64,000 nucleotides of DNA from a virus, in IMG/VR virus record IMGVR_UViG_3300032323_001214, positions 185,607 to 249,606 of that record; one strand, written 5' to 3'. Shown one piece after another: positions 16,052-57,742 of this stretch. Every line of letters begins with the position of its first letter. Position 1 is the first letter of the stretch. The notes under the pieces were generated by a model. The model saw nothing but the letters and a program-made list of their open reading frames with translations, did not search any database and had not been told where the DNA came from. The position numbers and the translations under genes are program-made.

Positions 16052-16672
16052 ATGAAGAGCCTAAAACAATACATTGCAGAAAGTGTACATACTTACAATT
16101 ACACTATCAAAATTGCTGGTGACGTGGATAAGAACTGGTTGGACATGTTTAAGTATAATCTTAACAAGTTTGATCCTATACGTATCAGTGAGCCTACAAA
16201 AACACCTATTCAAAAAGATCCATATGGATTTCCTAATTTAGCAAATCAGGCTATAACTATCATTAAGGCAGACTTTCGCTATCCAGCTACAGAGCCAATG
16301 ATTCAGCAGATTGCTCAATTACTAGGTTATAATGTAGATATGGTCAGAGTAATCAGTACAAAGTATGATGACAGTATAAACAGCGAAGTCGAAGGCTATG
16401 CTAATCAAATGAAAAATAGTCCAGTTCTTACACATGAAGAAATGGAAGAACAACCAGGAGCTAAAGAAGCTTCTAAAGCATATGGTGATAGTTATTTGAA
16501 TAGTATTAAGGATCAAACTAAAGATAGTAAGATCAATATTCCTTATGAAGCCAAGAAGACTCCGGATGCGTTTGACCCCTTCAAAATCATTCCACAAGAT
16601 CAAGCTGGTGCCAAAAGTCCAATGAGCACTATAATAAGACAGCCTAAGCCTGCAACTGGCGCAAGTAAATAA
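16052..16672 (+). CDS. Putative capsid core / internal protein with T4-like targeting peptide
   Basis: 206 aa. The N-terminus MKSLKQYIAESVHTYN is strikingly close to the capsid targeting sequence of T4 internal protein III (MKTYQEFIAE, cut by gp21 after I-A-E). The following domain (NYTIKIAGDVDKNWLDMFKY) is about 100 residues with beta-alpha character; the C-terminal third is low-complexity, Lys/Asp/Pro rich. I infer that it enters the prohead and loses its first ten residues. A scaffold or core component (gp67/gp68 type) is the main alternative. It has its own late promoter and is followed by a second CTS-type gene in the same unit. Confidence 0.75.
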   Translation: MKSLKQYIAESVHTYNYTIKIAGDVDKNWLDMFKYNLNKFDPIRISEPTKTPIQKDPYGFPNLANQAITIIKADFRYPATEPMIQQIAQLLGYNVDMVRVISTKYDDSINSEVEGYANQMKNSPVLTHEEMEEQPGAKEASKAYGDSYLNSIKDQTKDSKINIPYEAKKTPDAFDPFKIIPQDQAGAKSPMSTIIRQPKPATGASK

Positions 16673-16688
16673 TTAAAAGGAACACAAA

Positions 16689-19390: not shown

Positions 19391-19954
19391 ATGTTTTATG
19401 TATATGCGTATTTGAGAGAAGATGGTAGTCCTTATTACATAGGAAAAGGAAAGAACAATCGTGCTTGGAAAAAAGGGAAGGGAGAAATCTCCCCACCTAA
19501 AGATATTTCTATGATAGTTATCATGGAAACTGGTTTGTCTGAATTGGGCGCACTAGCTATAGAAAGAAGAATGATTAAGTGGTATGGTAGAAAAGATTTA
19601 GGAACAGGAATTCTTCATAATAAGACAGAAGGCGGTGACGGAGTTTCAGGTGCTCGACAAACAAAAGAACATATACAAAAGCGTATAATTTCAAGTAAAG
19701 GAAAACCGATGGGCATGACGGGCAAGAAACATACAGCAGAATCCAATCACAAAAGAAGTGTTGCTATGTTAGGAAAAAATATCGGGCCACAATCAGCAGA
19801 ACACCGCCTTGCTAGTGGGTTAGCTAAAAGGGGAATGAAATATAAACCACAAGAAATTCTACAATGTTCTTATTGTAATAAATTAGGTGGCGCCGCAAAT
19901 ATGAAAAGATATCATATGGAAAATTGTAAATTAATAAAAGAGGAATATGTATGA
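19391..19954 (+). CDS. GIY-YIG homing endonuclease
   Basis: 187 aa from the ATG at 19391; an upstream GTG at 19382 would overlap the AAGG site. The catalytic domain is visible as [19 protein letters not shown] (GIY-YIG variant YVY...YYIGKG), then Arg in NNRAWKK, and Glu in [14 protein letters not shown]. The C-terminal half holds NUMOD-type repeats ([18 protein letters not shown]) and a possible zinc finger (CSYCNKLGG...H..NC). It is a clear paralogue of the enzyme at 38778-39311. It precedes the fibre gene with a 4-nt overlap, so it was probably inserted between tail genes. Confidence 0.88.
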
Positions 19955-22923
19955 GCCAACAAAATATTGACTTTGGTACATTTCCTGATGATCCTGATGC
20001 CGATGCTATAAGAACAGCGTTTCAAAAAGTACAGAATAATTTCAGTGAATTATACACAGTTACATCGGATTCATCAGTAACGTCAGTAAACAGATCCTCA
20101 GGTTCTGGAATAACAGTTAACGCTCCTACGGGAAATGTAGTAGTTAGTGCAAACGTGTATAGGGTAGAAGTTTCTACATCTACACTAAGTATAGGTATAG
20201 GTGCAAACAATTTGCCATCCCCTGCACTATATACGTCCGGTTCACAAACACTAGTTATTGACTTACCGGCTAATATTACAACAAATAATCTTACAACTAT
20301 AGGTAATGCAAATATCGGTGGATATGCAAATGTGTTAGGTAATGTCACTGGTGGTAATTTAAACACAAGTGGTGTAGTGTCTGCTACAGGTAACATAACT
20401 GGTGGTAATTTAAACACAAGTGGTGTCGTGTCTGCTATTGGTAATATTACTGGCGGAAACCTAACAACCGTCGGGGCATTAAGTGTGACCGGTAACGCTA
20501 ACGTAGGAAACATAGGTGCTACTACTGGTGTATTTACAGGAAATATAACTTCTCTTAATGCAAATTTGGGCAATTCTGTATCAGCAAACTATTTTGTAGG
20601 TGATGGTAGTTTATTAACAAACGTCATCCCTACTGCAGGCCCTGTAATTTCAAATGGTACAAGTTATGTTAATGTGGCAACATCCGGTGGCAATATTGTA
20701 TCTAATGTTGCAGGAGCTACAATTTTAACGTTATCTGCATCTGGTTCAAATTTAACAGGCTATTCCAATGTAACAGGTAATATATCTGCATCCAATGCAA
20801 GCTTGGGTAATTCAGTAACTGCAAATTATTTTTTAGGAAATCTTTATGGTGCAGCCAACACTGCGGCAACGGTAACGTCGGCTACACAATCTAATATAAC
20901 AAGCGTTGGTACATTAACATCATTAGGTGTTAATGGAACTATTACTGCTGTTGCCGTCACTGCTAATACAGGTATATTTACTGGTAATGGTAGTGGATTG
21001 AGTGCAATAGCAGGTGCTAATGTTTTGGGGTTTGTTTCAAACGCTAATGTTGCTAATACTGCATATGCTGTAGCAGGTGCTAACGTTAGTGGTCAAGTAG
21101 GCTTTGCCGCAACAGCGAATGCTGTAGCAGGAGCCAATGTAAGTGGTGAAGTAAGCTTTGCCGCAACAGCGAATGCTGTAGCAGGAGCCAATGTAAGTGG
21201 TACTGTTGCTAATGCATCCCATTCAGCTACTGCAAACACTGTAACAACTGCGGCACAACCCAACATCACTAGTACAGGCACATTAATAAGTCTAGATGTT
21301 ACCGGAAACGTAACTGCGGGTAATATATATGCTAACGCAGGTACTATTGGTGCTAATCTGTTAACAGGTACATTAACAACTAATATCCAACCAAACATTA
21401 CACAAGTAGGAACACTAGTAGCACTAAACGTTACCGGTAATGCTGTAGTAGGAAATGTATATGCAAATAGTGGTACTATACAAGCAAACAATTTTGTAGG
21501 TAATGGTGCTGGACTAACAAATATATCAGTGAGTGCGGGAAGTTATATTGAAAACGGCAGTAGCAATATTTCTATTTCTGCGAATAGTAATGCATCATTT
21601 AATATTGCAGGTAACGCAAATGTTATGGTAGTTACTGATACTGGTGCAAACATTAATGGTTATGCTAATGTGTCAGGGAATATTACCGCAGGTAATGTAA
21701 CTGCTACTGGATTAACAGGCGCACTAATAACATCAACTCAATCTAATGTAACATCACTGGGCACACTAACTGGTTTAACAGTAAATGGTATAAGTAATCT
21801 AGGTCCTAATAGCAACGTCACCATTACAGGTGGCGTAGCAAATGCATTCTTGAAAACCAATGGTAGTGGAAGTTTGTCATGGGATACTGCTACATTAGTA
21901 CCGGCTCAAGGGTCCAATACACAAGTTATATTCAATGATGGTGGTTCTACATATGCTGGAAATGCAAATCTAGCATTCAATAAGACAACTGGTGCATTAA
22001 CAGTAGGTGGAAACGTAAACGCAGGAAATGTATCAGGCGGAAATACGGTTACCGCAAACTTTTTACAAGGTGTAATAACCACTGCTTCACAACCCAATAT
22101 AACTGAAGTAGGTTCATTGGGTTATTTAATTGTGTCAGGTAACTTAAATGCAGGCAATATAGTTGGTAATGGTAGTAATCTAACTGAATTGAATGCAAAT
22201 AATATATCAAGTGGTACCTTAGCACAAGCAAGACTTGCAAATAGTTCTCTTACTATTAATGGTTCTAGTATATCATTGGGTGGTTCCGGTACTGTAACCG
22301 CTAACACTACTCAAACATTGACTCTAGGTTCATTCTTAACTGGGACAAGTTTCAACGGTGGCACCGCAGTAACAGCCGCTGTAGATGCTACATCGGCAAA
22401 TACAGCAAGTAAAGTTGTTGCACGTGATTCAAGTGGTAACTTTAGTGCAGGTACAATTACAGCAACATTAAGTGGTGCGGCAACAAGTGCTACTACGGCG
22501 GGTACTGTAACAACAGCAGCACAACCTAACATTACTAGTGTTGGCACTCTATCAAGTTTAGCAGTAACCGGTAACGTTACAATGGCTAATAGTGTTGCAT
22601 CAACATTTACCATAACAGGTGTTACTACAGGTATTACTGCGGCTGGCACTGTTCAAGCAAACGCAACTGCCTTGACTAGAGCAATGAACGTTGTATCAAC
22701 TGTACCATCAGGTACTGGTGTAATATTACCTACAGCAGTTGCAGGTATGGTGGTCTACATTACAAATACTAATGCAAACAGTGTATTCGTTTACCCAGGA
22801 TCAGGTGCACAAATCAATTTGTTAGGAACTAACAATGCGTTCTCTCTTACTTCAAACGCAACAATAACATTTATAGCGCCTACAACAACTCAATGGTACA
22901 CACCAAGTGCCACATATGTATAA
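19951..22923 (+). CDS. Repetitive virion fibre protein
   Basis: 990 aa. N-terminus [27 protein letters not shown] is a head of the type shared by tail-associated proteins of aquatic T4-like phages. The body is Asn/Gly/Thr/Val-rich with many [11 protein letters not shown]- and AVAGANVSG-type repeats, suggesting a long beta-helical trimeric fibre. The C-terminus (about residues 890-990; [20 protein letters not shown], then [16 protein letters not shown]) forms a compact tip-like domain. It starts 1-4 nt inside the GIY-YIG gene end and is followed by the endolysin gene. Receptor binding is inferred from its architecture. Confidence 0.8.
20338..20465 (+). repeat. 51-bp in-frame tandem repeat in fibre gene
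   Basis: Two near-identical 51-bp units (20338-20388 and 20389-20439) and a partial third, each coding 17 residues ([15 protein letters not shown]). In-phase length keeps the reading frame; probably repeat-number variation of a fibre shaft. Confidence 0.85.
21067..21200 (+). repeat. 54-bp in-frame tandem repeat in fibre gene
   Basis: Units at 21067-21120, 21121-21174 and a partial third from 21175, each coding [16 protein letters not shown] (18 residues). The second and third units are almost identical at DNA level, indicating recent duplication. Confidence 0.85.
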
Positions 22924-39901: not shown

Positions 39902-40423
39902 ATGAGTCCGGATCTTTTTAGAAAATATATAGATATTATAAATGAAAATGCAGTAGACATTACTCAAATTGCTAGTCAGTTAAAATTCTTACCAACAAAA
40001 AAGCAACCAAAGCAATATAAATTTGTTAAAGATGGGGTTCCTGGTAAAATGCCAGCAATGACTTATACTGTTTCAGCACAAGAACAACCTGTAGTTACTA
40101 TTACTAGTGATGGTAAAGAAACACAGAACGTTGCGGCTACAAACGATATTATTATGTCAGGGCCTAGTAGAGAAAATTATGTAGTTAAGGGTGCTAAATT
40201 TCCTAAACTATATGATGGTAATATGGGTGGTGTAGTCATTCCGGAACAAAGTCCTCGACTGGTAGCATTGTATACGGGTCAACAACCTATTACGTTTACT
40301 GCTCCTTGGGGAGAAAGTATGATAATGAAGCCAGGTGATTATTTAGTTAAAGACGGGGATGCTGGTTATTATCGTGTAGCAAAAGCTGAATACGAACAAA
40401 CCTACAATCCTCCGGGAAAATAA
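39902..40423 (+). CDS. PGDYL-domain protein with CTS-like N-terminus
   Basis: 173 aa. The C-terminal half reads TAPWGESMIMKPGDYLVKDG followed by YYRVAKAEYEQTY, which is the PGDYL family signature (a small domain of unknown function in bacteria and phages). N-terminus MSPDLFRKYIDIINENAVD contains I-I-N-E|N, a possible prohead-protease site after 15 residues. It lies in the late island next to other CTS-type genes and ends 1 nt before a nucleotidyltransferase gene. Enzymatic activity is not known. Confidence 0.7.
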   Translation: MSPDLFRKYIDIINENAVDITQIASQLKFLPTKKQPKQYKFVKDGVPGKMPAMTYTVSAQEQPVVTITSDGKETQNVAATNDIIMSGPSRENYVVKGAKFPKLYDGNMGGVVIPEQSPRLVALYTGQQPITFTAPWGESMIMKPGDYLVKDGDAGYYRVAKAEYEQTYNPPGK

Positions 40424-40424
40424 A

Positions 40425-41549
40425 ATGAAAAAGATTGTCATTATGCCGGGAGGCTTTCATCCTTTTCATGCAGGACATATGGCATTATACAATTCTGCTA
40501 AAAAAGCATTTCCTGATGCGGATGTGTATGTTGCTGCCTCTGATTATCAAAAAGATCGTCCATTCCCCTTTGCACTAAAAGAAAAATTAGCAAGGATCGC
40601 TGGGGTAGACGCTGGTCATTTTGTGCAAGTTAAAAGTCCATTTGAAGCAAGTGAAATAACTAGTAAATATGACCCTGATAATACTGTATTGATTTTTGTA
40701 AAAAGTCAAAAGAATGCTAAGAATGGTCCTGATCCTGAAGGTCCGTTTCCCGCAGAAGTTGATCCTACTACGGGTAAATTACCGCTAGTTACTAGAGGTC
40801 CTAGGAAAGGACAACCGGTAAGTAATAGATTGCAGTATTACAAAGGTAATGAAGATAACTTGCAGCCTATGAGTAAACACTCATATTTGGCTTATCTGCC
40901 TACAGTTGAGTTTGGACCTGGAATTACCAGTGCTAGTCAGATTCGTAAAGCATGGCCTACATTAAATGACAAACGCAAGACAGCAATGGTCATGAGTTTA
41001 TATCCAGCTGCTCAAAAGAATCAAAAACTTGCCGCTAACATCGTTGCTATGCTAGATCAGGTAATGGGTGTACAGCAAGATGTGGACGAGGCTAAGAAAA
41101 AGAGAAAGAAAAAATCTTCAAGATCAATGGGGGGCTATTTCTTCCCCGGCTATGCCTATTACGGTGGTAGCGGTGAATACGGAGATGGCGGAGGCGGTGG
41201 AGAAAGTGTGGAAGAAGGCTCTCAGTCAAAGGATGAGCTAATATGGACATTGAACAATTTTGACTATTACACTGACAACGGTAGTATTTATGTAAATGAT
41301 AACGGTGATAAGATTGCTCGTATCGGTTCTAATTGGAAACATCAAAGTGGTAAGATGGGTAGTGGAGCAGAAGAATTGAGTGCTTTTTTGAGTTCACTGC
41401 AAGAGGTGAACGAAGGCTTTGGAATCAACTATCCAGGCACATACGAACAAGAAAACAATATGTTCAAAGGTCAAGGCCAAAGACGTGTCGGAGACTTGAC
41501 TAATGAAACTAGTTTGTCCGAAAGCTTGGATTATCTAGAAGAAAAATAA
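40425..41549 (+). CDS. HxGH nucleotidyltransferase with modular C-terminus
   Basis: 374 aa. Residues 1-200 form a cytidylyl/adenylyltransferase-like domain: MPGGFHPFHAGHMALY (HxGH) and GITSASQIRKAW as the (I/S)SxxxxR motif. Such enzymes activate nucleotides, NMN or phosphorylated head groups; the substrate is unknown here. The C-terminal 170 residues are different: a Lys-rich stretch (EAKKKRKKKSSR), a Gly/Tyr-rich patch (YYGGSGEYGDGGGGG) and hydrophobic-x-E sites (VNE|GF, LSE|SLDYLE). It may be a virion-packaged enzyme. First of three HxGH enzymes in the window. Confidence 0.75.
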   Translation: MKKIVIMPGGFHPFHAGHMALYNSAKKAFPDADVYVAASDYQKDRPFPFALKEKLARIAGVDAGHFVQVKSPFEASEITSKYDPDNTVLIFVKSQKNAKNGPDPEGPFPAEVDPTTGKLPLVTRGPRKGQPVSNRLQYYKGNEDNLQPMSKHSYLAYLPTVEFGPGITSASQIRKAWPTLNDKRKTAMVMSLYPAAQKNQKLAANIVAMLDQVMGVQQDVDEAKKKRKKKSSRSMGGYFFPGYAYYGGSGEYGDGGGGGESVEEGSQSKDELIWTLNNFDYYTDNGSIYVNDNGDKIARIGSNWKHQSGKMGSGAEELSAFLSSLQEVNEGFGINYPGTYEQENNMFKGQGQRRVGDLTNETSLSESLDYLEEK

Positions 41550-41569
41550 TTTGACCCCTCTTAATTAGT

Positions 41570-41581
41570 GTAAATATTTAC
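41570..41581 (+). promoter_or_regulatory. Palindromic late-promoter-like GTAAATATTTAC
   Basis: A perfect 12-bp palindrome in the 50-bp gap before the glycosyltransferase gene; contains GTAAATAT, a late-promoter variant. ATTTAAGAGGACC provides the Shine-Dalgarno site. Confidence 0.4.
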
Positions 41582-41599
41582 ATCATTTAAGAGGACCAA

Positions 41600-42523
41600 A
41601 TGGCAACTAAAAAAACAACCACTAAAGCAACTAAAGCTACTACAGAAAAAACAGTACCAGTAGAAAAGGTACAGGAGATTGCGCAACAGGCAGCACAAAA
41701 TACACCTGAAGCACCTGCTGCAGGAACAGTTCAAGTTAATGTAGATTTTTTGCGCACTACTAAAGTACACATAGCAATGCCATGTTATGGCGGTATGCTA
41801 ACAGAATCAACATTCATGAGTTTCATCAAGTGGGCAAACACAGCCCGTCAGCTTGGTATCGATTGGACGTTAGAAACAATGGTCAATGAGTCATTGATTA
41901 GTCGTGCTCGTAACACACTAACTGCAAAGTTCTTGGACATGAAAGACGCAACTCACTTGTTCTTTGTTGACGCAGACATTGGATGGGAGCCATGGCACTT
42001 GTTAGTATTATTGAATCGTGATGTTGATGTTATCGGTGGACTATACCCAATGAAAACTATGCCCATCAAGTGGGTAGTTAACGGCTTTGAAGGTGCAGAA
42101 GAAGGACCAGATGGTCTACAAGAAGTATCTAAAGCAGGTACAGGTTTCTTGTTGATGAAGAAGCATGTATTTGAAAAGATGAATAGTCATCCTGCAGTTA
42201 AGCAGTATAAGAACGACATTGGATTAGATCCAAAGTATGACCAACACTTGAAGACTTACTTTGATACAGCAGTTCGCCAGAATCGTTACTACAGTGAAGA
42301 TTGGACATTCTGTGAAAACTGGCGTGACATGGGCGGTAAGATTTGGGTTGATAAACGTGTATTGTTGCGTCACTCAGGATCATATGTATTCTGCCAAGAA
42401 AATCAGCAGTACTTGATTGACAACATTGGACCAATGTATGTTAGAGAACAAGAAGCTAAGGCAGCGGCCGCTGCTCAAATCACACCCGGACCAGACGGTA
42501 ATGTGACATTGAAAGTCTCTTAA
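41600..42523 (+). CDS. GT-A-type glycosyltransferase
   Basis: 307 aa. After a Thr/Lys/Glu-rich disordered head (TTKATKATTEKTVPVEK) a GT2-like domain begins at about residue 52: HIAMPCYGGMLTESTFMSF, SRARNTLTAKFLD, then LFFVDADIGWEPWHLL with DAD as the metal-binding DxD motif, and VIGGLYPMKTMPIKWVVNG. Typical of phage glycosyltransferases of the anp1/GT2 group, acting on DNA bases, virion proteins or surface sugars. Ends in a terminator. Confidence 0.8.
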   Translation: MATKKTTTKATKATTEKTVPVEKVQEIAQQAAQNTPEAPAAGTVQVNVDFLRTTKVHIAMPCYGGMLTESTFMSFIKWANTARQLGIDWTLETMVNESLISRARNTLTAKFLDMKDATHLFFVDADIGWEPWHLLVLLNRDVDVIGGLYPMKTMPIKWVVNGFEGAEEGPDGLQEVSKAGTGFLLMKKHVFEKMNSHPAVKQYKNDIGLDPKYDQHLKTYFDTAVRQNRYYSEDWTFCENWRDMGGKIWVDKRVLLRHSGSYVFCQENQQYLIDNIGPMYVREQEAKAAAAAQITPGPDGNVTLKVS

Positions 42524-42530
42524 AAACAAG

Positions 42531-42550
42531 GCCCCGAAAGGGGCTTTTTT
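42531..42550 (+). terminator. Intrinsic terminator
   Basis: GCCCC-GAAA-GGGGC stem-loop with a GAAA tetraloop and six T, eight bases after the glycosyltransferase stop codon. Confidence 0.92.
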
Positions 42551-42560
42551 AATGGCTATA

Positions 42561-42567
42561 CTAAATA
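42561..42567 (+). promoter_or_regulatory. Late-promoter variant CTAAATA
   Basis: ACTAAATACAC between the terminator and the 30-aa gene; 19 bases before its ATG with AAAGGGAG between. Confidence 0.45.
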
Positions 42568-42586
42568 CACTAAAGGGAGATCAACT

Positions 42587-42679
42587 ATGTCCTGGTTCAA
42601 GCACAAGCCCCCAAAATATCCTCCATACAGAGAACCCGTCAAAGAACAAATTCCACAAAACAATCAGCCTAGTAAGTAA
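42587..42679 (+). CDS. 30-residue Pro-rich peptide
   Basis: MSWFKHKPPKYPPYREPVKE then IPQNNQPSK. It has a strong Shine-Dalgarno (AAAGGGAG, 7-nt spacing), its own terminator-to-promoter slot and lies between two independent transcription units, so it is likely translated. Pro/Lys-rich peptides of this kind occur near virion genes. Function unknown. Confidence 0.6.
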   Translation: MSWFKHKPPKYPPYREPVKEQIPQNNQPSK

Positions 42680-42684
42680 GTATT

Positions 42685-42692
42685 GATAAATA
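42685..42692 (+). promoter_or_regulatory. T4-type late promoter, leaderless start
   Basis: GATAAATACTTA followed by ATG; the start codon begins five bases after the element, at the predicted +1. Confidence 0.72.
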
Positions 42693-42696
42693 CTTA

Positions 42697-44427
42697 ATGA
42701 ACCTAAAAGAGCTAAATTCCTTCAAAATATCCGACGCCGTCACTTTCCATGACAAACTCAACCACAAGTTGTGGAATGGTACTAAGTTACGCCCAGAAGT
42801 CAAACAACAACTAGAAGCAATTGCAGATGATTTTCTGCAAGAGATGGGAATCCATGAGTTAGATGTGAGAGATATTACTATTTCAGGAAGTAATGCTGCA
42901 TATAGTTATACCGATCATAGTGATTTGGATTTGCATATATTAGTGAATGTAAATGATTTGCCTAGTAGTGATGTATATAAAGAATTGTTTCAAGCAAAAA
43001 AGACAATATATAATGATACACACAACATAACCATACGCAAAGTTCCGGTTGAATTATATGTACAAGACGCAAGTGAACCAGTTGTAAGTTTGGGGGAGTA
43101 CAGCATAAAAAATGATAGCTGGATTAAGATTCCTACAAAGCGTAGAAGCAACTTTGATCAAAATGCCACCAAAGCAAAATATAATAAGTTATTAGATATT
43201 GTTGAACGAGCAATAGAATCAAACAATTTAAACAAAATTCAAAAAGTATTAAAGAAGATTAAACAATATCGTCAAGCTGGTTTAGATAAAGGTGGCGAAT
43301 TTGGTCCTGAGAATCTAGCATATAAAGCACTACGTAGTCAGGGCTATATTACTAAACTGTACGATTTGCGTGATAAACTACACAGCAATCGTTTAAGCAT
43401 TGAAGGTATGTATTCTAATATGGATGAAGATTATGATCCCAATGGTCCTCCTCCTGGCCCTGAGTTCAAGCCTACAATGCCAGCTGGTACTGTCAAAGTA
43501 GATGTAAGTGATGTATATGACTGGTACAAGTTAGGTCAACATATTAGTAATATGAAAGGTCTAGGCAAACACGATTTTGGTAGTGGACCCCCTAGTACTA
43601 TATTGTCATTTGGTGACGAAGATACTGAACACAAATATATTGACGCATTACAGAAAACGGGCTTAACAACTACTGATATTGATCCAGTCGATCCTAAACA
43701 ACCTAAAGGTATGAAGCGCCAGAAAGTTGACCCTACATACAATGTTAACGAAACATTTAATAAACCTTATTCAATAACATGGGAAAAAAGTGAGTACGGC
43801 GATTACGATGCTCTGGCCACACTAGAAGATGGCACACACCTAAGCATAATGTTTGAGCACACTACTCCCTACGAAGTTGCTGTTTCTTTTTGGAGAAACA
43901 ACAGTCAAGAAGTCACAGGCGAAGGTGATGCACAACGAGTATTTGCTACAGTATTGTCTGCTATTCAACAGTTTTTAAAACAAGAGCAGCCGGCAAATAT
44001 AACTTTCTCAGCAGTGAAAGCAGATGATCCATCGGGCAGCAGATCCAAGCTTTACGACAAACTAGTTCAGCGTTATGCTAGCGCATGGGGATATCAGTCT
44101 CGCAGTTTTGACCATGATGACAAAGTAGAATTTGAATTATCTAAAATAAACAAGAATGTAAAAGAAGATGAAACAATGCAATATGCGGCTGAAAAAACAC
44201 CGCCAACAAATACATACGGTGGTTTAAGAGATAACCAATATCGAGGCAGTATCTCAGAAGCCTCAGGATACATTCCTAGCGAAAAAGAGAAAAATGACCC
44301 GCGTTTTAAGACGGCATTAACAGTAGATGTTAAGCCAGATAGTATAAAAAAGAACGCAAAAGCTTTTAGCTGGCTCACAGATAGAGCGGGCATTCCACCA
44401 ACATTAAAAGCTAGCGGCAAATTCTGA
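42697..44427 (+). CDS. Pol-beta-type nucleotidyltransferase, modular
   Basis: 576 aa. Residues 40-110 hold the Pol-beta-type (MNT) core: TISGSNAAYSYTDHSDLDLH (GS...DxD) and a third acidic residue further on. A helical module follows (ERAIESNNLNKIQKVLKKIK). A second domain (FSAVKADDPSGSRSKLYDKL..YASAWGYQSR) and a C-terminal module (SGYIPSEKEKNDPRF..TDRAGIPP) resemble widely shuffled phage modules; the latter is preceded by ISE|A, a possible prohead-protease site. The mRNA is predicted leaderless. It could modify tRNA, protein or nucleotides in the next host. Confidence 0.75.
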   Translation: MNLKELNSFKISDAVTFHDKLNHKLWNGTKLRPEVKQQLEAIADDFLQEMGIHELDVRDITISGSNAAYSYTDHSDLDLHILVNVNDLPSSDVYKELFQAKKTIYNDTHNITIRKVPVELYVQDASEPVVSLGEYSIKNDSWIKIPTKRRSNFDQNATKAKYNKLLDIVERAIESNNLNKIQKVLKKIKQYRQAGLDKGGEFGPENLAYKALRSQGYITKLYDLRDKLHSNRLSIEGMYSNMDEDYDPNGPPPGPEFKPTMPAGTVKVDVSDVYDWYKLGQHISNMKGLGKHDFGSGPPSTILSFGDEDTEHKYIDALQKTGLTTTDIDPVDPKQPKGMKRQKVDPTYNVNETFNKPYSITWEKSEYGDYDALATLEDGTHLSIMFEHTTPYEVAVSFWRNNSQEVTGEGDAQRVFATVLSAIQQFLKQEQPANITFSAVKADDPSGSRSKLYDKLVQRYASAWGYQSRSFDHDDKVEFELSKINKNVKEDETMQYAAEKTPPTNTYGGLRDNQYRGSISEASGYIPSEKEKNDPRFKTALTVDVKPDSIKKNAKAFSWLTDRAGIPPTLKASGKF

Positions 44428-44470: not shown

Positions 44471-45754
44471 ATGAAAATCACACAAATCATCAGCGAAACT
44501 ACTGCGGGCTGTGTTGCTACAGTAGCAATGCCAATGGGCGAAACACAAAAGCGTCCTAAAGTTTCAGGACTAGAGCCAGCGGACAAAGTAATGTTCGGTA
44601 AGTCAAAGAAAAAAGGACCCTATGGAAACAGCCTTAGCGAGGGCAAAATGAAAGACTTGTCTATGGATTTACGAGCAAGCAAAGATGGTTTATCTGATAT
44701 CGACTTTAAAAAGAAGTATGGAAAGACCAAAGAAGAAATGCGTAAATTAATGCAAGATGCACGTAAAGAACAAAAAGTTAATGAAGATGAACTAAGCGAA
44801 CAGGATCTAATACTAGTTCCCGGTCAAGGTCGTAAAATGAAAACTGGTTTCGTGCCACATGGTAAAAGTCGTCTTGACCATGAAGTTGAGATGGCTCGTA
44901 GTGATTTATTCAGTGCCGCACAAAATGCTCAAAAAGTCTATTCGATGATTAAACACACAAGTGAGGAAGAGGGTCTTGAAGGCTGGGTACAAGAAAAGAT
45001 TATCAAAGCCAATGATTACTTAAACACTATCCGTGAATACTTAGAAGGTAAGCAAGTGCAAGGTATGGCGGAAGACATGACACGCAGAGGATTCTTGCGC
45101 GGTCTCGGAGCCGCAGCAGCAGGGGCAGCTGGTATTGGTGCTGCCGGTAATGCTCAAGGTAAAGTGACCTTTGATAAAGACGGTAATCCAATAAAACCAC
45201 CAGACTGGAAGAACTTTCAGGGTTCAGCACCGGCTCAGGGTGCAAAGCCACTACCTGCAGATAATACTGCATCATCAACTGGTTCTGCTTCAGCCTCTTC
45301 TCAGACAGCTAGCGCAGGAAGCTCTCCTAGTTCTGCATCAAGAGCAGCCGCTAATCAAGCCAGTGCCGCGGCAGAAAAGATTAGATATACCAATCCTAAA
45401 TTTAATCAAGAATACGAGCGAATTGAAAAATTCTATCAACAAACTAAATCAAGCATATTGAATAACAAAAGATACAGTCCTAACCCTGATATTGCTAAAC
45501 GACAACACGCTGAATTTGTGAAAATGTTGATAGCAGCAGATACTGAATTTGCTCAAAAGACCAATGAGTTGATGAAAGAATACAGCCGCCTAAAAGAACA
45601 CGGCGTGGCGGAAGGTGCCAAAGTAGATAGAATGATTAAGCACATTACTAAATCTGAAAAGAAATTAGGCAAGAGTAAAGATGAAGCTGAGAACATAGCC
45701 TGGGCGACTGCTAATAAACGTGGCATGTTAGACAACAAGAACAAGAAAGCGTGA
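44471..45754 (+). CDS. CTS-type modular protein with internal twin-arginine motif
   Basis: 427 aa. N-terminus MKITQIISETTAG (I-S-E|T) resembles a capsid targeting peptide. Internal modules include a helical KYGKTKEEMRKLMQDARKEQ unit and a helical DHEVEMARSDLFSAAQNAQK unit. At about residue 200 a site-like GMAED is followed at once by MTRRGFLRGLGAAAAGAAGI, a perfect (S/T)RRxFLR plus hydrophobic Ala/Gly helix, i.e. a Tat export signal in mid-protein. After it come an Ala/Ser-rich linker, a helical domain, GVAEGAKVD, and a Lys-rich tail (KKLGKSKDEAENIAWATANK). It lies 1 nt before the next modular gene. Confidence 0.78.
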   Translation: MKITQIISETTAGCVATVAMPMGETQKRPKVSGLEPADKVMFGKSKKKGPYGNSLSEGKMKDLSMDLRASKDGLSDIDFKKKYGKTKEEMRKLMQDARKEQKVNEDELSEQDLILVPGQGRKMKTGFVPHGKSRLDHEVEMARSDLFSAAQNAQKVYSMIKHTSEEEGLEGWVQEKIIKANDYLNTIREYLEGKQVQGMAEDMTRRGFLRGLGAAAAGAAGIGAAGNAQGKVTFDKDGNPIKPPDWKNFQGSAPAQGAKPLPADNTASSTGSASASSQTASAGSSPSSASRAAANQASAAAEKIRYTNPKFNQEYERIEKFYQQTKSSILNNKRYSPNPDIAKRQHAEFVKMLIAADTEFAQKTNELMKEYSRLKEHGVAEGAKVDRMIKHITKSEKKLGKSKDEAENIAWATANKRGMLDNKNKKA

Positions 45755-45755
45755 T

Positions 45756-47576
45756 ATGAGCAATATTCTAAAAGGTTTAAATGAAAGGTATTTTAGTCGT
45801 GATGATCAAGACCAACAGAATGCCATGGATACACGCCGTAGAAGCGATTTGAGTGGCGAACGAAATGCTGGTCTTAATGAACCAGATGAATTACCTACTA
45901 TACCTCAACAAAGTCGCAATGGCGTTTATGAATACGATGTACCTACTGGTCAAGAAAAAATAGCACAAGAATTAGGATTACAACTGCATAAAGGTCATTG
46001 GTTCTCTCGTGTCCCGGTTCAAAAAGCAAATTTTCAATTTGGTCGTCCTCAATTTCATGAGATTCCAGCAAAAAATGTATATGAAGCAGAACAGGATTAC
46101 GGTCCTGAGTATCAAGATAAAGTAAAGCGTCTAGGTCAGATGGCTAAACAAGGTGAGCGTAAAACTGTTTGGGATCCTGTCAAGCGTGTGTACAAGACTG
46201 TTCCAGTAAATCCAGCTAAACAGCAAGGTGTGGCGGAAGAACAATTAGATGAAAAGTGCTGGGACACTCACAAGCAAGTTGGAATGAAAAACAAGGGCGG
46301 CAGAATGGTGCCTAACTGTGTTCCAAAAGAAAGCGTTGGGGAAGAGCAAGATATTACTGAAGAAAAATGTCCACACTGCGGTGGACCAATGTTCAGTGAA
46401 ATGATTATGAACGAGAAGAAAGATGCTTGCTACTACAAAGTTAAGAGCCGTTATAAAGTATGGCCAAGTGCTTATGCCAGTGGTGCATTAGTTAAGTGTC
46501 GTAAGAGTGGAGCAGACAGTTGGGGCGATGGTGGCAAGAAGAATGAAAGTTCTATACTAGAAGGTATTGAACAAGTAGATGAGAACTTACACAAGTGGTT
46601 CAAAGAGAAGTGGGTTCGTTTTGGTCCCGATGGTAAGATTCGTGGTGACTGTGCTAGAGGTGATGATAGTGAAGGTAAGCCAAAGTGTTTGCCACAAAGT
46701 AAAGCACACAGTCTAGGTAAGAAGGGTCGTGCAAGTGCTGCCTCACGTAAGCGCAGAGAAGATCCTAATCCAGAACGCCACGGTAAAGCAATCAATGTTA
46801 ACACTAAGAAAAAGTCAAATGAAGGTGTGGCGGAAGGCTCTACTTTTCCTGGCTCACTGAGTGGTCGTGAATGGTCAAAAGTTGGTAGACAAATAAAGTC
46901 ATCTCAGGGTCGTGATAGCAGTGTTACAAGTCCACATCAACGAAAAGATTGGTACAATCCAAAAGATCCAAGAAGTAGCAAACAGCAAAAATTGGACTAT
47001 TTAAAATCTATGAAGGCAAAGCAAGGTGTGGCGGAAGACCAACTTGATGAGATTAGTTCTACCACTGCAAAAAATGTATACAACAAGAGAGAACAAGAAC
47101 ACAAAGACCTAATGAACAAGACTTATGGCAATGCTCAAGATCCACAAGTTCGACAAGCTCAACAAAAACTTGCAAAAGCCGCAAAGTCCTATTTCAATCG
47201 TGGTGCCAAAAAAGGCGTAGAGGAAAGTTATGATTTGGACGCCTTCTCCGGGGTCAAGTTTCTTAATCCAGAGACAGGTAAAATGGGATCATTCTACTAT
47301 TGGTCTTCAATGGAAGGTAAGAACGAGGCGTACTCTATGATTACTAATAAAAAATTGGTGCCGGCCCACAATGACGGGACACCAATGACTTGGGATGAAT
47401 ACAAACAGGCTCTAGATGGTGGTAATCAAAGTGTGGCGGAAGAACAACTAGACGAAAAGTGGTCAACGAAATATAAAGACAGTATCAACTGTAGTAATCC
47501 TAAAGGATTTAGCCAAAAAGCACATTGTGCTGGTAAACAGAAAAATGAAAGTGCTGTTATGAAAGGTCTTAAATAA
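45756..47576 (+). CDS. Mosaic 'polyprotein' of small Cys/Lys modules joined by VAE/LDE linkers
   Basis: 606 aa. N-terminus MSNILKGLNERYF (L-N-E|R). Repeated linkers QGVAEEQLDEK, EGVAEGS, QGVAEDQLDEI, KGVEESYD and QSVAEEQLDEK separate distinct modules: CWDTHKQVGMKNKGGRMVPN, a zinc-ribbon-like CPHCGG unit with SRYKVWPSAYASGALVKCRK, a DUF5872-like WFKEKWVRFGPDGKIRGDC unit, a basic KKDWYNPKDPR-like stretch, and a last STKYKDSINCSNPKGFSQKA unit. Modules of this kind occur singly in other phage and virus proteins. The linkers fit prohead-protease sites ([LIV]-x-E), so I read it as a precursor of several injected miniproteins. Confidence 0.75.
   Translation: MSNILKGLNERYFSRDDQDQQNAMDTRRRSDLSGERNAGLNEPDELPTIPQQSRNGVYEYDVPTGQEKIAQELGLQLHKGHWFSRVPVQKANFQFGRPQFHEIPAKNVYEAEQDYGPEYQDKVKRLGQMAKQGERKTVWDPVKRVYKTVPVNPAKQQGVAEEQLDEKCWDTHKQVGMKNKGGRMVPNCVPKESVGEEQDITEEKCPHCGGPMFSEMIMNEKKDACYYKVKSRYKVWPSAYASGALVKCRKSGADSWGDGGKKNESSILEGIEQVDENLHKWFKEKWVRFGPDGKIRGDCARGDDSEGKPKCLPQSKAHSLGKKGRASAASRKRREDPNPERHGKAINVNTKKKSNEGVAEGSTFPGSLSGREWSKVGRQIKSSQGRDSSVTSPHQRKDWYNPKDPRSSKQQKLDYLKSMKAKQGVAEDQLDEISSTTAKNVYNKREQEHKDLMNKTYGNAQDPQVRQAQQKLAKAAKSYFNRGAKKGVEESYDLDAFSGVKFLNPETGKMGSFYYWSSMEGKNEAYSMITNKKLVPAHNDGTPMTWDEYKQALDGGNQSVAEEQLDEKWSTKYKDSINCSNPKGFSQKAHCAGKQKNESAVMKGLK
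46227..47442 (+). repeat. Recurrent GGTGTGGCGGAAG linker repeat
   Basis: The 13-bp string GGTGTGGCGGAAG occurs at 46227, 46824 and 47024, with AGTGTGGCGGAAG at 47430 and close relatives at 45064 and 45602 in the previous gene. All are in the same reading frame (GVAE). GCG is uncommon in this AT-rich genome, so near-perfect nucleotide identity suggests recent copying or selection at DNA level. Confidence 0.8.
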
Positions 47577-48676: not shown

Positions 48677-49252
48677 ATGAGATTTAACGAAATACTATCA
48701 GAATCAGCAGTAAAACAACTAGCAAAAAAATTGCCTAGTTTAGAAAAACACGACTATAATACCATTGATAAACTAATGAAAACAGTAGCTAAACAACATA
48801 GTATCACTGGTAAAGCACTGCATGACCTTTTTGTTAAAAAATATAATAAAACTCCCGACGACTGGATTAAAAATAAATTAGATGAGAGCAACGTTGATAC
48901 AGAATTACAACAGGAAGTTGATAAATTCTGTAAATGGGCATGTAACAAACTATCTATTAAAGACGAACCCCATATTGAGTTGAGTATGGATACTGAAGAA
49001 GCGCAAACTAATCATCATACCGGCGGACACATAATGGGTGATGATAAGATTTGGGTGTATGCTAAAAATCGTAATTTAGTAGATATATTACGCACAGTAT
49101 TTCACGAATTGGTTCATGTTCGTCAGGGCGAACTAGATATGATTAATCCGGGTGATAGTTATCCGGGCAGTCCAATTGAGGTGATGGCTGACGCCTTGGC
49201 TGGTAAATATATCAAAATTTATGGTGAAAAGAACCATCATATCTTTCAATAA
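48677..49252 (+). CDS. Zinc metallopeptidase with CTS-like N-terminus
   Basis: 191 aa. N-terminus MRFNEILSESAVKQLAKK has I-L-S-E|S, a T4-like capsid targeting and cleavage peptide. The C-terminal domain holds the zincin motif TVFHELVHVRQGELD (HExxH, about residues 148-152) and a third ligand candidate Glu in GSPIEVMADALAGKYI (about 173). A His-rich segment NHHTGGHIMGDDKIWVY precedes it. This would be a protease carried in the capsid and delivered with the DNA, or acting during head assembly. Transcribed from its own late promoter. No similar sized host peptidase comes to mind. Confidence 0.78.
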   Translation: MRFNEILSESAVKQLAKKLPSLEKHDYNTIDKLMKTVAKQHSITGKALHDLFVKKYNKTPDDWIKNKLDESNVDTELQQEVDKFCKWACNKLSIKDEPHIELSMDTEEAQTNHHTGGHIMGDDKIWVYAKNRNLVDILRTVFHELVHVRQGELDMINPGDSYPGSPIEVMADALAGKYIKIYGEKNHHIFQ

Positions 49253-53713: not shown

Positions 53714-54078
53714 TTGATTATATCGTTGGTGGTGAGTACCTAAATGTTACTAGTAACAAAGGTGCTCAACCTTATATCAATATGTCTAGCAATCAGCCTA
53801 TGGTAGGAGCATTAAGTTATGATCCTAGTATTGGGCAGATGAAGGTCTACGATGGTAACAGCTGGATGAGTCTTGGAGGTGGTAGTGCTACTGTCAATAT
53901 GAGTCCAAACGCTATCACTATTCTCAAGTGGGCTGAAAAGAAAATGCTAGAAGAAGCTGAACGTGAACGATTAGCAGAAACTAATCCTACTATCAGAGAC
54001 TTAATGGATCAGATTAAGCAAAAAGAAGAACAAATCAAAATTGTTCAAACATTAATAAAAGAAGAAGAAAAAGTTTAA
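53710..54078 (+). CDS. Protein of unknown function between clamp and TGT-like gene
   Basis: 122 aa. N-terminal part beta-like with VGALSYDPSIGQMKVYDGNSWMSLGGG, a pattern seen in phage fibre or virion-associated proteins; C-terminal half a charged coiled coil (EKKMLEEAERERLAETNPTI, MDQIKQKEEQIKIVQTLIKE). Overlaps both neighbours by 1-4 nt, so it is co-translated with gp45 and the DpdA-like enzyme. No function recognised. Confidence 0.8.
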   Translation: MIDYIVGGEYLNVTSNKGAQPYINMSSNQPMVGALSYDPSIGQMKVYDGNSWMSLGGGSATVNMSPNAITILKWAEKKMLEEAERERLAETNPTIRDLMDQIKQKEEQIKIVQTLIKEEEKV

Positions 54079-55670
54079 TGGAACAAGTAAATCTATCAGC
54101 AAGTCACAATGACGATTGGGCATTGTTCTTACCAGCAGTCAGTAGTTTTTATATCTCCGGCTTAGGTAAGCAACGTAAAGGCGAACAATATTTTGATCCT
54201 GCACGTATTCCTGCAAAGTTTAATGGTGATGTAGAGAAACTAAACTTTCTTAATAGTAAGGAAGGTCTCTACTATTACAAGTGGGGATTGTACAGTGCTG
54301 GTCATGCTAACTTAGATACAACAGTTAATGATCCTAGTGAGAGTATCATTAGAGAACGTGAAGCTGGCACATTTATGTTGGGTGACAGTGGTGGATTTCA
54401 GATTCTTAAAGGTCAATGGCCAGCTGATTGGAAAGATCCTAACTGCCCACGTGCTATGGTAAAACGTAAAGCGGTGTTAAACTGGATGGACACATACATG
54501 GATTATGGTATGTGTTTAGATATCCCATCACAATCATTGAGTACGTTTCATATGAAGGATCCTAAAACCATAGAAAAGGATTCAGAGGGTAAACCAATAC
54601 CCGGCACTGGTAAAAGTCTTCATGGCATCAGTACGATTGAAGAAGCTATTGCCGCTACACATATTAATAACGAATACTTTATTAAGAACCGTAATGGCAA
54701 ATGCAAGTTCTTAAATGTGTTGCAAGGTCGTAATCACACACAAAGTGATGACTGGTATGAAGAAATGAAGAAGTATTGTGATCCAAATATCTACCCAGAT
54801 AATCATTTTAATGGTTGGGCATTCGGTGGACAAAACAAGATTGACGTACACTTGATGTTGCGTAGACTTGTTGACATTATCCACGACGGATTGTTAGTTG
54901 AAGGCAAGCATGATTTGGTTCACTGTTTGGGTGTATCTATCTTAGAGTATGCTGTACTCTTCACCGACATTCAAAAAGCTATTCGCAAATATCATAACCC
55001 AAAACTTAAAATCACATTTGACTGTGCAAGCCCATTCTTTAGTGCGGCTAAAGGTCTAGCATACTTTAACAACAGTATTGAACACGATAAGAAATGGTCA
55101 TACAGTATGGAAAAGACTGCTGAGAAAAAGAGTTATGCCAACGATAATCGTAAGTACAGTGATGGGGTATTAGCTGATGGTATACACAAAATATTTACCG
55201 ATAGTCCTGTAACTGACCTTATGACCATGAAGGACCTTTGCTATCGCGGTCAAGGATTCATCGGTCAACATGGTAAAGAAACAAAGACTAGTTGGGATAC
55301 ATTAAGTTATACACTAGTACAAAGTCACAATGTTTACACTCACTTAAGTGCTGTACAAGAAGCCAATCGTAAATATGAACAAGGTATCATGCCAAAAATG
55401 GTTATGAATCAGTTTGATGACGAACATTTCGGTGAAATTGTAGATAAGATATTTGCACAAAAAGATAGACAAAAGAGTATATCTATGATAGAATCTCATA
55501 GTAGCTTCTGGATGCAAATGAAATCAGGTAGTCAAGGTTTCAGTGGTAAAAAAGCAATGAATGCTATGACTATGTTTGACCAATTATTTGATATAAACAC
55601 AGATGAATCGGAAGTTGATGAAATCATTGAAGATAGTGACGATGAGATTTCCAAAGTACTAGGAGAATAA
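54078..55670 (+). CDS. dpdA: TGT-superfamily transglycosylase, DpdA-like
   Basis: 530 aa. TGT-family enzymes exchange guanine for a 7-deazaguanine. Key blocks: GDSGGFQ at residues 101-107 (general-base Asp, SDSGGFQ in TGT), LNVLQGRNH near 213, GWAFGGQ near 253, TFDCASP near 314 (the nucleophile-type Asp in FDC.xPTR), and SHNVYTHLSAVQEANR near 415. The Zn-binding Cys cluster of tRNA TGT (CxCxxC...H) is missing, as in DNA-acting DpdA-type members. FolE and QueD lie 3-8 kb downstream. DNA modification is inferred; a tRNA substrate cannot be excluded. Confidence 0.8.
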   Translation: MEQVNLSASHNDDWALFLPAVSSFYISGLGKQRKGEQYFDPARIPAKFNGDVEKLNFLNSKEGLYYYKWGLYSAGHANLDTTVNDPSESIIREREAGTFMLGDSGGFQILKGQWPADWKDPNCPRAMVKRKAVLNWMDTYMDYGMCLDIPSQSLSTFHMKDPKTIEKDSEGKPIPGTGKSLHGISTIEEAIAATHINNEYFIKNRNGKCKFLNVLQGRNHTQSDDWYEEMKKYCDPNIYPDNHFNGWAFGGQNKIDVHLMLRRLVDIIHDGLLVEGKHDLVHCLGVSILEYAVLFTDIQKAIRKYHNPKLKITFDCASPFFSAAKGLAYFNNSIEHDKKWSYSMEKTAEKKSYANDNRKYSDGVLADGIHKIFTDSPVTDLMTMKDLCYRGQGFIGQHGKETKTSWDTLSYTLVQSHNVYTHLSAVQEANRKYEQGIMPKMVMNQFDDEHFGEIVDKIFAQKDRQKSISMIESHSSFWMQMKSGSQGFSGKKAMNAMTMFDQLFDINTDESEVDEIIEDSDDEISKVLGE

Positions 55671-56558: not shown

Positions 56559-57742
56559 GAAAATTATATTACATGGGTCTTGAACCCTACAAAGCAAGAT
56601 ATACTCTACAACTGCAAGAGTGGAATGTAGAAGTTTTCAAGCGTAGGAAAATCAAGTATGTAGTTGTACCCGGTGAGACACTAAGTAACGATCAAGCGAT
56701 TGTTACTGGGCAAGTATTAGATGCACATGGTCGTTCATATTTCGGTATGAGTCAAATGATGAATCTAGTTAAGATGATGAAAGCAGGGGAAGTTACCAGT
56801 GAAGATGTTATCTATTTTGAAGACATGTTTCAACCGGGCTTTGAAAGTTTGCCTTATATTCTTAATCAAGTTAGTGAAACACATCGCCCTAAAATATATG
56901 TCCGCTGTCTTGCGCAGTCAATCGATCCTGATGACTTTGTTCACGTTTGGGGGATGGCCAAGTGGATGGGTTCCTACGAGAAGATGGTCTGCGAAGCTGT
57001 TAGCCAGAGTGGTGGTGCGATCCTCGCGACTAATGAAGAAATGGTCATGAACATGAAGATTGCAGGTTGGGATGTACCAATCTACAATATCAGTGGTTTA
57101 GCATTTGGTAAGAGCGAAGTAATGAATAGAGTAAATAAAATTATTCCATTCCATGATCGCAAAAACCGAGTGGTATTTTCAGCACGATGGGATCAAGAAA
57201 AACAACCAGACTTCTATATGGATGTTATTGAGGGCTGGAATAAACGGCACCCAAACAACAATGTAGAATTTTGTATTTGCAGTGGTGCTAAACTACGTAG
57301 CAATAACGACAGTTACATGAAACGCACACATAATCTAGTTGAACGTGATCTATTGCGTATCTATGAGGATCTAGAAAAAGATGACTATTATGATATTGTC
57401 AATAATAGCCGTGTTGTGTTTAACTGTGCTTTACAAGATTGGGTGTCAAACACAGTATCAGAAGCAGATGCTCTTGGATGTAATGTATTGTATCCGGCGT
57501 ATCGTAGCTTCCCTGAAACGTTTGCTAACGATCCGGAAAGATTATACATTCCATGGTCTGTAACAGATGCATTGGATAAACTTGAAAAGTTATTGAAGAA
57601 ACCCCATACTGATATCGGAAAAATAAGTGATTACAACAACGGTACAATTGATCGTATTGTTGATATCCTTCAAGGCAATGGACAGAGTATGTTGAGAATG
57701 TCCACTGACTATAGAAAACATACTCGCAATTCTAAATTTTAA
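56555..57742 (+). CDS. GT-B-type glycosyltransferase
   Basis: 395 aa from the ATG at 56555 (ATGA coupling), rather than an in-frame ATG at 56531 inside the previous gene. Starts MRKLYYMGLEPYKARYTLQL. The C-terminal Rossmann domain shows RVVFSARWDQEKQPDFYMDV, the GT4-type donor site ...VSNTVSEADALGCNVLYPAY (E-x7-E-like Glu and Gly), and a following helix. DNA or surface glycosylation is possible; base modification by glucosylation (T4 alpha/beta-GT type) is one option because the DpdA-like gene is close. The acceptor is unknown. Confidence 0.75.
   Translation: MRKLYYMGLEPYKARYTLQLQEWNVEVFKRRKIKYVVVPGETLSNDQAIVTGQVLDAHGRSYFGMSQMMNLVKMMKAGEVTSEDVIYFEDMFQPGFESLPYILNQVSETHRPKIYVRCLAQSIDPDDFVHVWGMAKWMGSYEKMVCEAVSQSGGAILATNEEMVMNMKIAGWDVPIYNISGLAFGKSEVMNRVNKIIPFHDRKNRVVFSARWDQEKQPDFYMDVIEGWNKRHPNNNVEFCICSGAKLRSNNDSYMKRTHNLVERDLLRIYEDLEKDDYYDIVNNSRVVFNCALQDWVSNTVSEADALGCNVLYPAYRSFPETFANDPERLYIPWSVTDALDKLEKLLKKPHTDIGKISDYNNGTIDRIVDILQGNGQSMLRMSTDYRKHTRNSKF

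Follow-up and report, generated by a model that had tools for sequence, protein, structure and literature searches.

In phage T4, the prohead protease gp21 cleaves following L/I-X-E; the internal proteins carry N-terminal propeptides of 10–19 residues (capsid-targeting sequences, CTS) that direct them to the core, and both Alt and the internal proteins (IPs) are ejected (PMC9026906). For another described group, the polyvalent proteins, release by embedded zincin-like peptidases has been proposed (PMC5512222), and virions of the cyanophage S-SM1 contain gp21 together with 18 hypothetical proteins (S-SM1 virion data, PMC3037559). Most genes of giant environmental phages are unannotated. Here we compare with these systems a 606-aa mosaic polyprotein precursor, P0001, encoded at 45756–47576 (+ strand, as are all of its parts) of the window, that is, of the whole stretch of DNA analysed, which is the final 64 kb of virus record G000 (249,606 bases; 249.6 kb). 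We consider P0001 likely to be a capsid-targeted precursor of several small virion-internal proteins in a T4-like jumbo phage, with packaging, cleavage and ejection all being inferred. Shown at the level of sequence are its sites and their fixed register, the shuffling of its modules, the coinciding N-terminal site of stand-alone genes, the placement of signal peptides, and the genes for the protease and gp23.

The ORF is real, and [LIVM]xE motifs are in excess in its product (17, when 6.9 are expected from composition; for [LIV]xE, 16 against a predicted 5.7); the same composition test gave no excess of [LIV]xD, [LIV]xK or [FYW]xE. VAE is present at residues 159–161, 358–360, 425–427 and 560–562, and GVEE at 488–490. 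A QLDE tail accompanies three of the four VAE linkers (EEQLDEK, DQLDEI, EEQLDEK), the remaining one reading GVAEGS. In DNA, the four linkers read GGTGTGGCGGAAG or differ from it by one mismatch; as GGNGTGGCGGAAG, exact copies start at 46227, 46824 and 47025 and the copy with one mismatch at 47430, and the gene upstream of P0001 has an exact copy at 45602 and one with one mismatch at 45062. When up to two mismatches were allowed, the linker 13-mer had 6 matches against 1.2 expected, a number reached in none of 100 shuffles, and beyond P0001 and the upstream gene the exact 13-mer was absent from the whole 249.6 kb record. An earlier, sequence-only reading of this locus had proposed a 606-residue protein with recurring VAE/LDE linkers, an additional KGVEESYD, and linker DNA almost identical each time; all three claims held, the ORF and the motif counts agreeing with the first. 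Its claim of at least four linkers of the QGVAEEQLDEK type held in part, given that only three of the four carry the QLDE tail.

P0001 opens with a capsid-targeting-like N-terminus, MSNILKGLNE/ (45756–45785; a slash marks a predicted cut, here at an LxE site), for which the T4 CTS is a precedent (PMC9026906) and which resembles the starts of relatives' polyproteins (MSSILKGLNE/S, MSKILKGLNE/V, MSNILKGIINE/V). The segment that follows (45786–46238) closes at QGVAE/ and has matches in two relatives only. Linker DNA copy 1 (GGTGTGGCGGAAG; 46227–46239) and an LDE site (46245–46253) lead into module A (CWDTHKQVG..VPNCVPKESVGE/; 46254–46343), and the mini-module CPHCGG..MNE/ (46362–46415) comes next, which in the relatives L081 and L082 opens a gene behind a capsid-targeting peptide (MKI..IITE/SHN.CPHCGG). 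One entry of the earlier module list is in fact two modules, with the MNE/ site splitting CPHCGG from KKDACYYK... Module B (KKDACYYKVKSRYKVWPSAYASGALVKCRK; 46416–46562) is DUF5872-like (PF19197, E=2.5e-5) at 25.3 bits, under the curated cut-off of 27.5, which is exceeded in the relatives L013 and L018. What looks like an internal former N-terminus, ESSILEGIEQVDE/ (46545–46583; compare the gene starts of L041 and L050), precedes module C (NLHKWFKEKWVRFGPDGKIRGDCARG..; 46584–46835), which has a fixed-position E and extends as far as GVAE/. After linker copy 2 (46824–46836, an exact 13-mer match) lies module D (GSTFPGSLSGREWSKVGRQ..KQGVAE/; 46836–47036), found in L012 also between VAE linkers with other neighbours; after copy 3 (47025–47037) and its LDE site (47043–47051) lie module E (ISSTTAKNVYNKREQ..GVEE/; 47052–47225) and module F (SYDLDAFSGVKFLNPE..SVAE/; 47226–47441), both defined by the site listing; and copy 4, with its one mismatch (47430–47442), is followed by an LDE site (47448–47456) and by module G (KWSTKYKDSINCSNPKGFSQKAHCAGK) with the C-terminus (47457–47576). 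Modules A, B, C and G each have a conserved cysteine pair. None of these four matched a domain of known activity, and no peptidase family was among the domain matches of P0001. AlphaFold2 predictions (mean pLDDT 65 for module C and 63 for module B) were too low for a structure search, and when PDB sequences were searched with the module B profile, nothing beyond chance matches to zinc fingers came up. Because their function is unknown, the view that the four conserved Cys/Lys modules are effectors is unproven.

Scanning viral contigs yielded 80 relative loci, every one an IMG/VR record, and a scan of genome contigs found no cellular relative. The 72 distinct relative ORFs have their modules in many, freely varying orders (ABCG, CAB, CGAB, BAC and CAGB), in some cases on separate adjacent genes, and the relatives' domains include GNAT, LysM, TonB_C and PARP-like ones, i.e., disparate activities in one chain. 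We aligned 58 non-redundant polyproteins locally with one another and took the alignment ends as breakpoints; 62% of these homology edges lay within 10 aa of [LIV]xE, compared to 34% for control edges displaced within the same proteins (z 15.8). The controls [LIV]xD, [LIV]xK, [LIV]x[QN] and [FYW]xE showed no enrichment. Enrichment was also seen near E.[LIV] and, weakly, near [ST]xE and [KR]xE, in part because these overlap the linkers (VAEEQLDE). Since many contexts are homologous, the p-values overstate independence. The sequence-only reading had offered as its check that homologues should gain and lose modules between linkers, which was passed with reordering in addition, and as its refutation that linkers should lie off module boundaries in relatives, which is not so: they sit at boundaries, in fixed register.

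This register is strict. [LIVM]xE is at one fixed offset ahead of 41/41 distinct copies of module G, and ahead of 24 of 27 CWDTH-type and 28 of 28 CWKGYH-type copies of module A (xxE in 52/55 overall). A site precedes all 37 distinct copies of module B, at the fixed offset in 36 of them and two residues farther in the 37th. For module C, the P1 residue is Glu in 56/56 distinct copies, of which 44 have [LIVM]xE there and 12 have TDE or ADE. Module C also exists as stand-alone genes, which begin MRANEIITE/NLRKWFKEKW in L050 and MRANEFVNE/NLRKWFKEKW in L083, and in L041 the gene start ahead of it is MSSIFDGIGDEGVEQLDE/NLRKWF. The internal junction of P0001, ...SSILEGIEQVDE/NLHKWFKEKW (VDE/NLHKWF), falls at the same residue as the N-terminal site of stand-alone C, and because these sites coincide the B–C junction resembles a former N-terminus kept in a fusion. 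In L082, the CPHCGG and B modules likewise stand behind MKILEIITE/.

The phage has the genes that such sites would call for. G000 encodes a Peptidase_S77 at 57092–57562 of the record (PF03420, E=7.8e-29) and gp23 at 54042–55049 (PF07068, E=6.3e-99), and gp23 itself has the N-terminus ...KKQLLSE/SSAGTTTAG, about 10 residues ahead of the start of the Pfam match. Both genes are present in all three relative records larger than 300 kb; seven shorter relative records show neither, as would be expected if they are fragments. The sequence-only reading had called [LIV]-x-E the gp21 cleavage type, which these two genes support, with the difference that the T4 consensus has L or I: among sites of the P0001 family, LDE, ITE and LNE fit it, and VAE, VEE and VDE need V at P3. 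Valine at P3 departs from the published T4 consensus, yet it is found in 9 of 75 of the group's own N-terminal sites. Separately, an apparent GIY-YIG homing endonuclease-like ORF (L087, G000:56345–56996) has the scaffold gene on one side and the prohead protease gene on the other.

Capsid-targeting-like starts ending in [ILV]xE are on many genes around the polyprotein loci, with the group-wide motif M[RK]xx[EQ][FIL][ILV]xE, and the cargo behind them includes GNAT, Kinase-PolyVal-like, amidoligase and cell-wall hydrolase domains. When N-termini in the relatives' loci were scored with the pattern M[RK]x..[EQDNK][FIYLM]-P3-x-P1, the 75 distinct ones with P1=E had I (50), L (14), V (9) or F (2) at P3, i.e., I/L/V in 73/75, and this bias was gone when P1 was other than E. 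In the 352 kb relative G002, the motif is at 13/69 gene starts with MK or MR compared to 4/170 internal MK/MR (p=3e-5), and in G000 at 6/35 starts compared to 2/132 internal (p=0.001); across the whole of G000, [LI]xE alone shows no more than a weak excess in the first 16 residues, and the fuller motif is required. The start of P0001 fits a T4-type capsid-targeting peptide with a prohead protease site at its end, an inference made from sequence alone and without targeting data. Elsewhere in the window, two genes at 16052–19298 have targeting-like starts (MKSLKQYIAE/S and MDFKSLLSQLDQLNE/A), the latter encoding an 869-aa, charged, low-complexity protein with VAEG sites. Before the window, L091 (G000:131403–131762) encodes a 119-aa protein, MRIKELTESVNIPSVLYHATYRPLLKSIRQHGLGG..., behind a targeting-like peptide, resembling ADP-ribosyltransferase-type N-termini by eye.

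The upstream gene (44471–45754, + strand) is of the same kind as P0001, starting MKITQIISE/ and carrying its linker DNA at an MAE (45062–45074) and a VAE (45602–45614). Its MAE/ is followed by an internal TAT signal, DMTRRGFLRGLGAAAAGAAGIGAAGNAQG (MAE/DMTRRGFLRG; 45065–45160, + strand), matching TAT_signal PF10518 at residues 202–220 (E=0.0018). Not every [LIV]xE can be a boundary, because the motif also occurs within the coiled stretches of this gene. Across all polyprotein loci, we searched for TAT motifs (RRxFL and then an A/G-rich stretch); in 17 of the 18 distinct ones an [LIVM]xE ends within a few residues upstream, and the 18th has TDE, when on average 10% would be expected by chance in those proteins (tail probability 2e-16, overstated as some contexts are homologous). 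Sec-like matches were close behind [LIVM]xE in 16 of 20 cases (e.g., LDE/GWKEWLAGGALALGAMGAQA), among them that of L180, which opens a short ORF that looks unrelated; the other four, which lack a site, are unlike this module type, and one of them is a plain N-terminal signal. These internal signals are frequently deep in the chain, as far as residue 877. Behind them lie GH19 in L006 (PF00182, E=1e-16), LysM-like (by eye) plus GH19 in L211, L214 and L215, Hydrolase_2 in L054 (PF07486, E=6e-19), and TonB_C in L037, which is the TDE case. In three genes, GH19 stands behind a capsid-targeting peptide alone (L196 MRATEFISE/DISRRGFLGG; L198 MRASEIIAE/DLTRRGFLGA; L210 MRSYEFISE/IDRRGFLGA). The 846-aa ORF of L208 has a ParB-like domain (by eye) upstream of a DLEE/GWKDW signal and GH19, one precursor thus joining cytoplasmic-type and periplasmic-type cargo.

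Several other genes nearby deserve mention. A probable capsid-targeted protein is encoded at 48677–49252 (+ strand), with an MRFNEILSE/ start and an HELVH motif (zincin-type HELVHVRQGE), possibly a packaged metallopeptidase. Upstream of the polyprotein, a gene run at 39902–44427 includes PGDYG-like, phrog_1574 and Pol-beta-type nucleotidyltransferase-like genes and a cytidylyltransferase-like gene with VEE/VNE linkers at its C-terminus; these are possibly further packaged proteins. We sought a phage homologue of this cytidylyltransferase for a link to the S-SM1 virion protein T4-GC190, found only weak matches elsewhere, and do not claim the link. Very long ITAGNLxGGN-like repeat proteins, probably fibre or adhesin proteins, are encoded at 19951–22923 of the window and at G000:40175–52745.

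In the mechanism that we propose, the MSNILKGLNE peptide would draw P0001 into the prohead core, where the phage's own S77 (gp21-type) protease would cleave behind the [LIVM]xE glutamate at module junctions, freeing about 7–9 small modules that would stay inside the head until they were ejected into the next host along with the DNA. In the wider family, cleavage would uncover TAT or Sec signals on some modules, whose products could then leave the host cytoplasm by export and act on the cell wall; modules would be swapped by recombination at the linkers, of which near-identical DNA would be the trace. Export requires a cytoplasm after the cut, and as the protease acts in proheads the next host is its simplest site; cutting or export in the producing cell instead remains possible. 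A bolder reading, on which we could argue either side, is two-stage delivery, in which the head protease unmasks TAT/Sec signals and, following ejection, the new host's own secretion machinery exports the products, which then act on its cell wall; that the remaining modules act in the cytoplasm belongs to this reading and is just as finely balanced. As to the sequence-only proposal of a head-packed, multi-effector precursor cut into small proteins, it is supported, with packaging, cleavage and effector role unproven.

The DNA of the linkers bears on how modules are exchanged. Of 94 VAE linkers, 53 spell the motif GTGGCGGAA, when codon use would predict about 0.7%; the LDE, VDE, IEE, MNE and ISE boundaries use varied codons with [LIVM]xE kept. 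In the loci, GTGTGGCGGAAG has 117 distinct contexts, every one of which reads in the VAE frame; it is found neither on the opposite strand nor in reverse. For this reason we rejected the idea that it serves mainly as a signal in the DNA, such as a Chi-like site or a mobile element. Our best reading is that near-identical linker DNA stems from a common ancestor by way of recombination at the linkers, and that selection has preserved the amino acids. As an alternative, slow codons might serve to make translation pause between modules.

Could the linkers be recombination scars only, in an intact multidomain structural or DNA-binding protein of the head or neck? The shared spelling of VAE (GTGGCGGAA in 53/94) and the 117 contexts of GTGTGGCGGAAG, in VAE frame throughout, speak for this, as do the cyanophage T4-GC119 relatives, which are annotated 'structural protein', adjoin gp16 and have few linkers. 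We regard it as unlikely: non-VAE boundaries vary their codons but retain [LIVM]xE, stand-alone modules have a capsid-targeting-type site at the matching residue, and signal peptides placed internally behind sites would be useless unless the chain is cut. That the protein is never cut, being of polyvalent type with flexible acidic linkers whose likeness to [LIV]xE is compositional, draws on the commonness of E-rich linkers in general and on the weak breakpoint enrichment near [ST]xE and [KR]xE. We find this very unlikely, as [LIV]xE is enriched 1.69x in the polyproteins versus 1.19x in the genome's other proteins with no enrichment of [LIV]xD, and the register is fixed ahead of every module.

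A different objection accepts the cuts and assigns them to a host protease or to a place outside the head, with the pieces serving late infection (e.g., as exported lysis enzymes) instead of being injected. The cargo does include cell-wall hydrolases bearing TAT/Sec signals (GH19, Hydrolase_2), and in short genes like MRATEFISEDISRRGFLGG the first ten residues may be just a long signal n-region. However, the same N-terminal motif is on many signal-less genes (GNAT, kinase-like, amidoligase), the motif agrees with the T4 CTS pattern and with the phage's own protease, and a GH19 gene that lacks the motif exists separately in the window phage (22933–23556), making this explanation unlikely too. 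That gene encodes a GH19-type endolysin with neither a targeting nor a signal peptide and is probably an ordinary lysis enzyme.

If the precursor reading is true, T4-like phages would have a true polyprotein strategy, with combinatorial head cargo and a capsid protease acting in trans, and recombination at near-identical linkers would be a shuffling device. A simple rule (a capsid-targeting peptide plus [LIVM]xE boundaries) would then reveal injected proteins of giant environmental phages. Signals directly behind cut sites would be anatomical evidence for ejection into a living cytoplasm and then export, a route that to our knowledge is not described for any phage head protein and that we did not find in the full-text literature searched. 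Under the two-stage reading, if true, internal placement of the signals would stop premature export in the producing cell.

Among known systems, P0001 is like T4 IPI–IPIII and Alt in its short N-terminal (hydrophobic)xE peptide, in the S77 protease and gp23 encoded by the phage and in its varied cargo (PMC9026906). Unlike the T4 internal proteins, which undergo one propeptide cut (Alt also a C-terminal one), it has many predicted cuts and several cargo modules per chain, and P3 is often V. Repeated cutting of one chain by the prohead protease is known from the T4 core proteins gp22 and gp67 (PMC9026906); their fragments are mainly expelled scaffold debris, whereas the P0001-type pieces are conserved, shuffled modules, some of which in relatives have recognisable enzyme domains. 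The distant cyanophage relative T4-GC119 (e.g., S-SM1 SSM1_115) has modules A, B and C-like segments in common, and its genes adjoin gp16 in a virion gene cluster; unlike P0001, it has few repeated VAE/LDE linkers and no signal peptides that we could see, and it is annotated as hypothetical or structural. Like polyvalent proteins (Iyer et al. 2017, PMC5512222), P0001 is multidomain, mosaic and predicted to be injected with DNA, and the relatives' GNAT, Kinase-PolyVal (PF18762) and PF07486 cell-wall hydrolase are domain classes described there; unlike them, it has no peptidase domain and its sites match a separate head protease. We infer, from sequence alone, that proteins of the P0001 type would work like T4 internal proteins crossed with a polyvalent protein.
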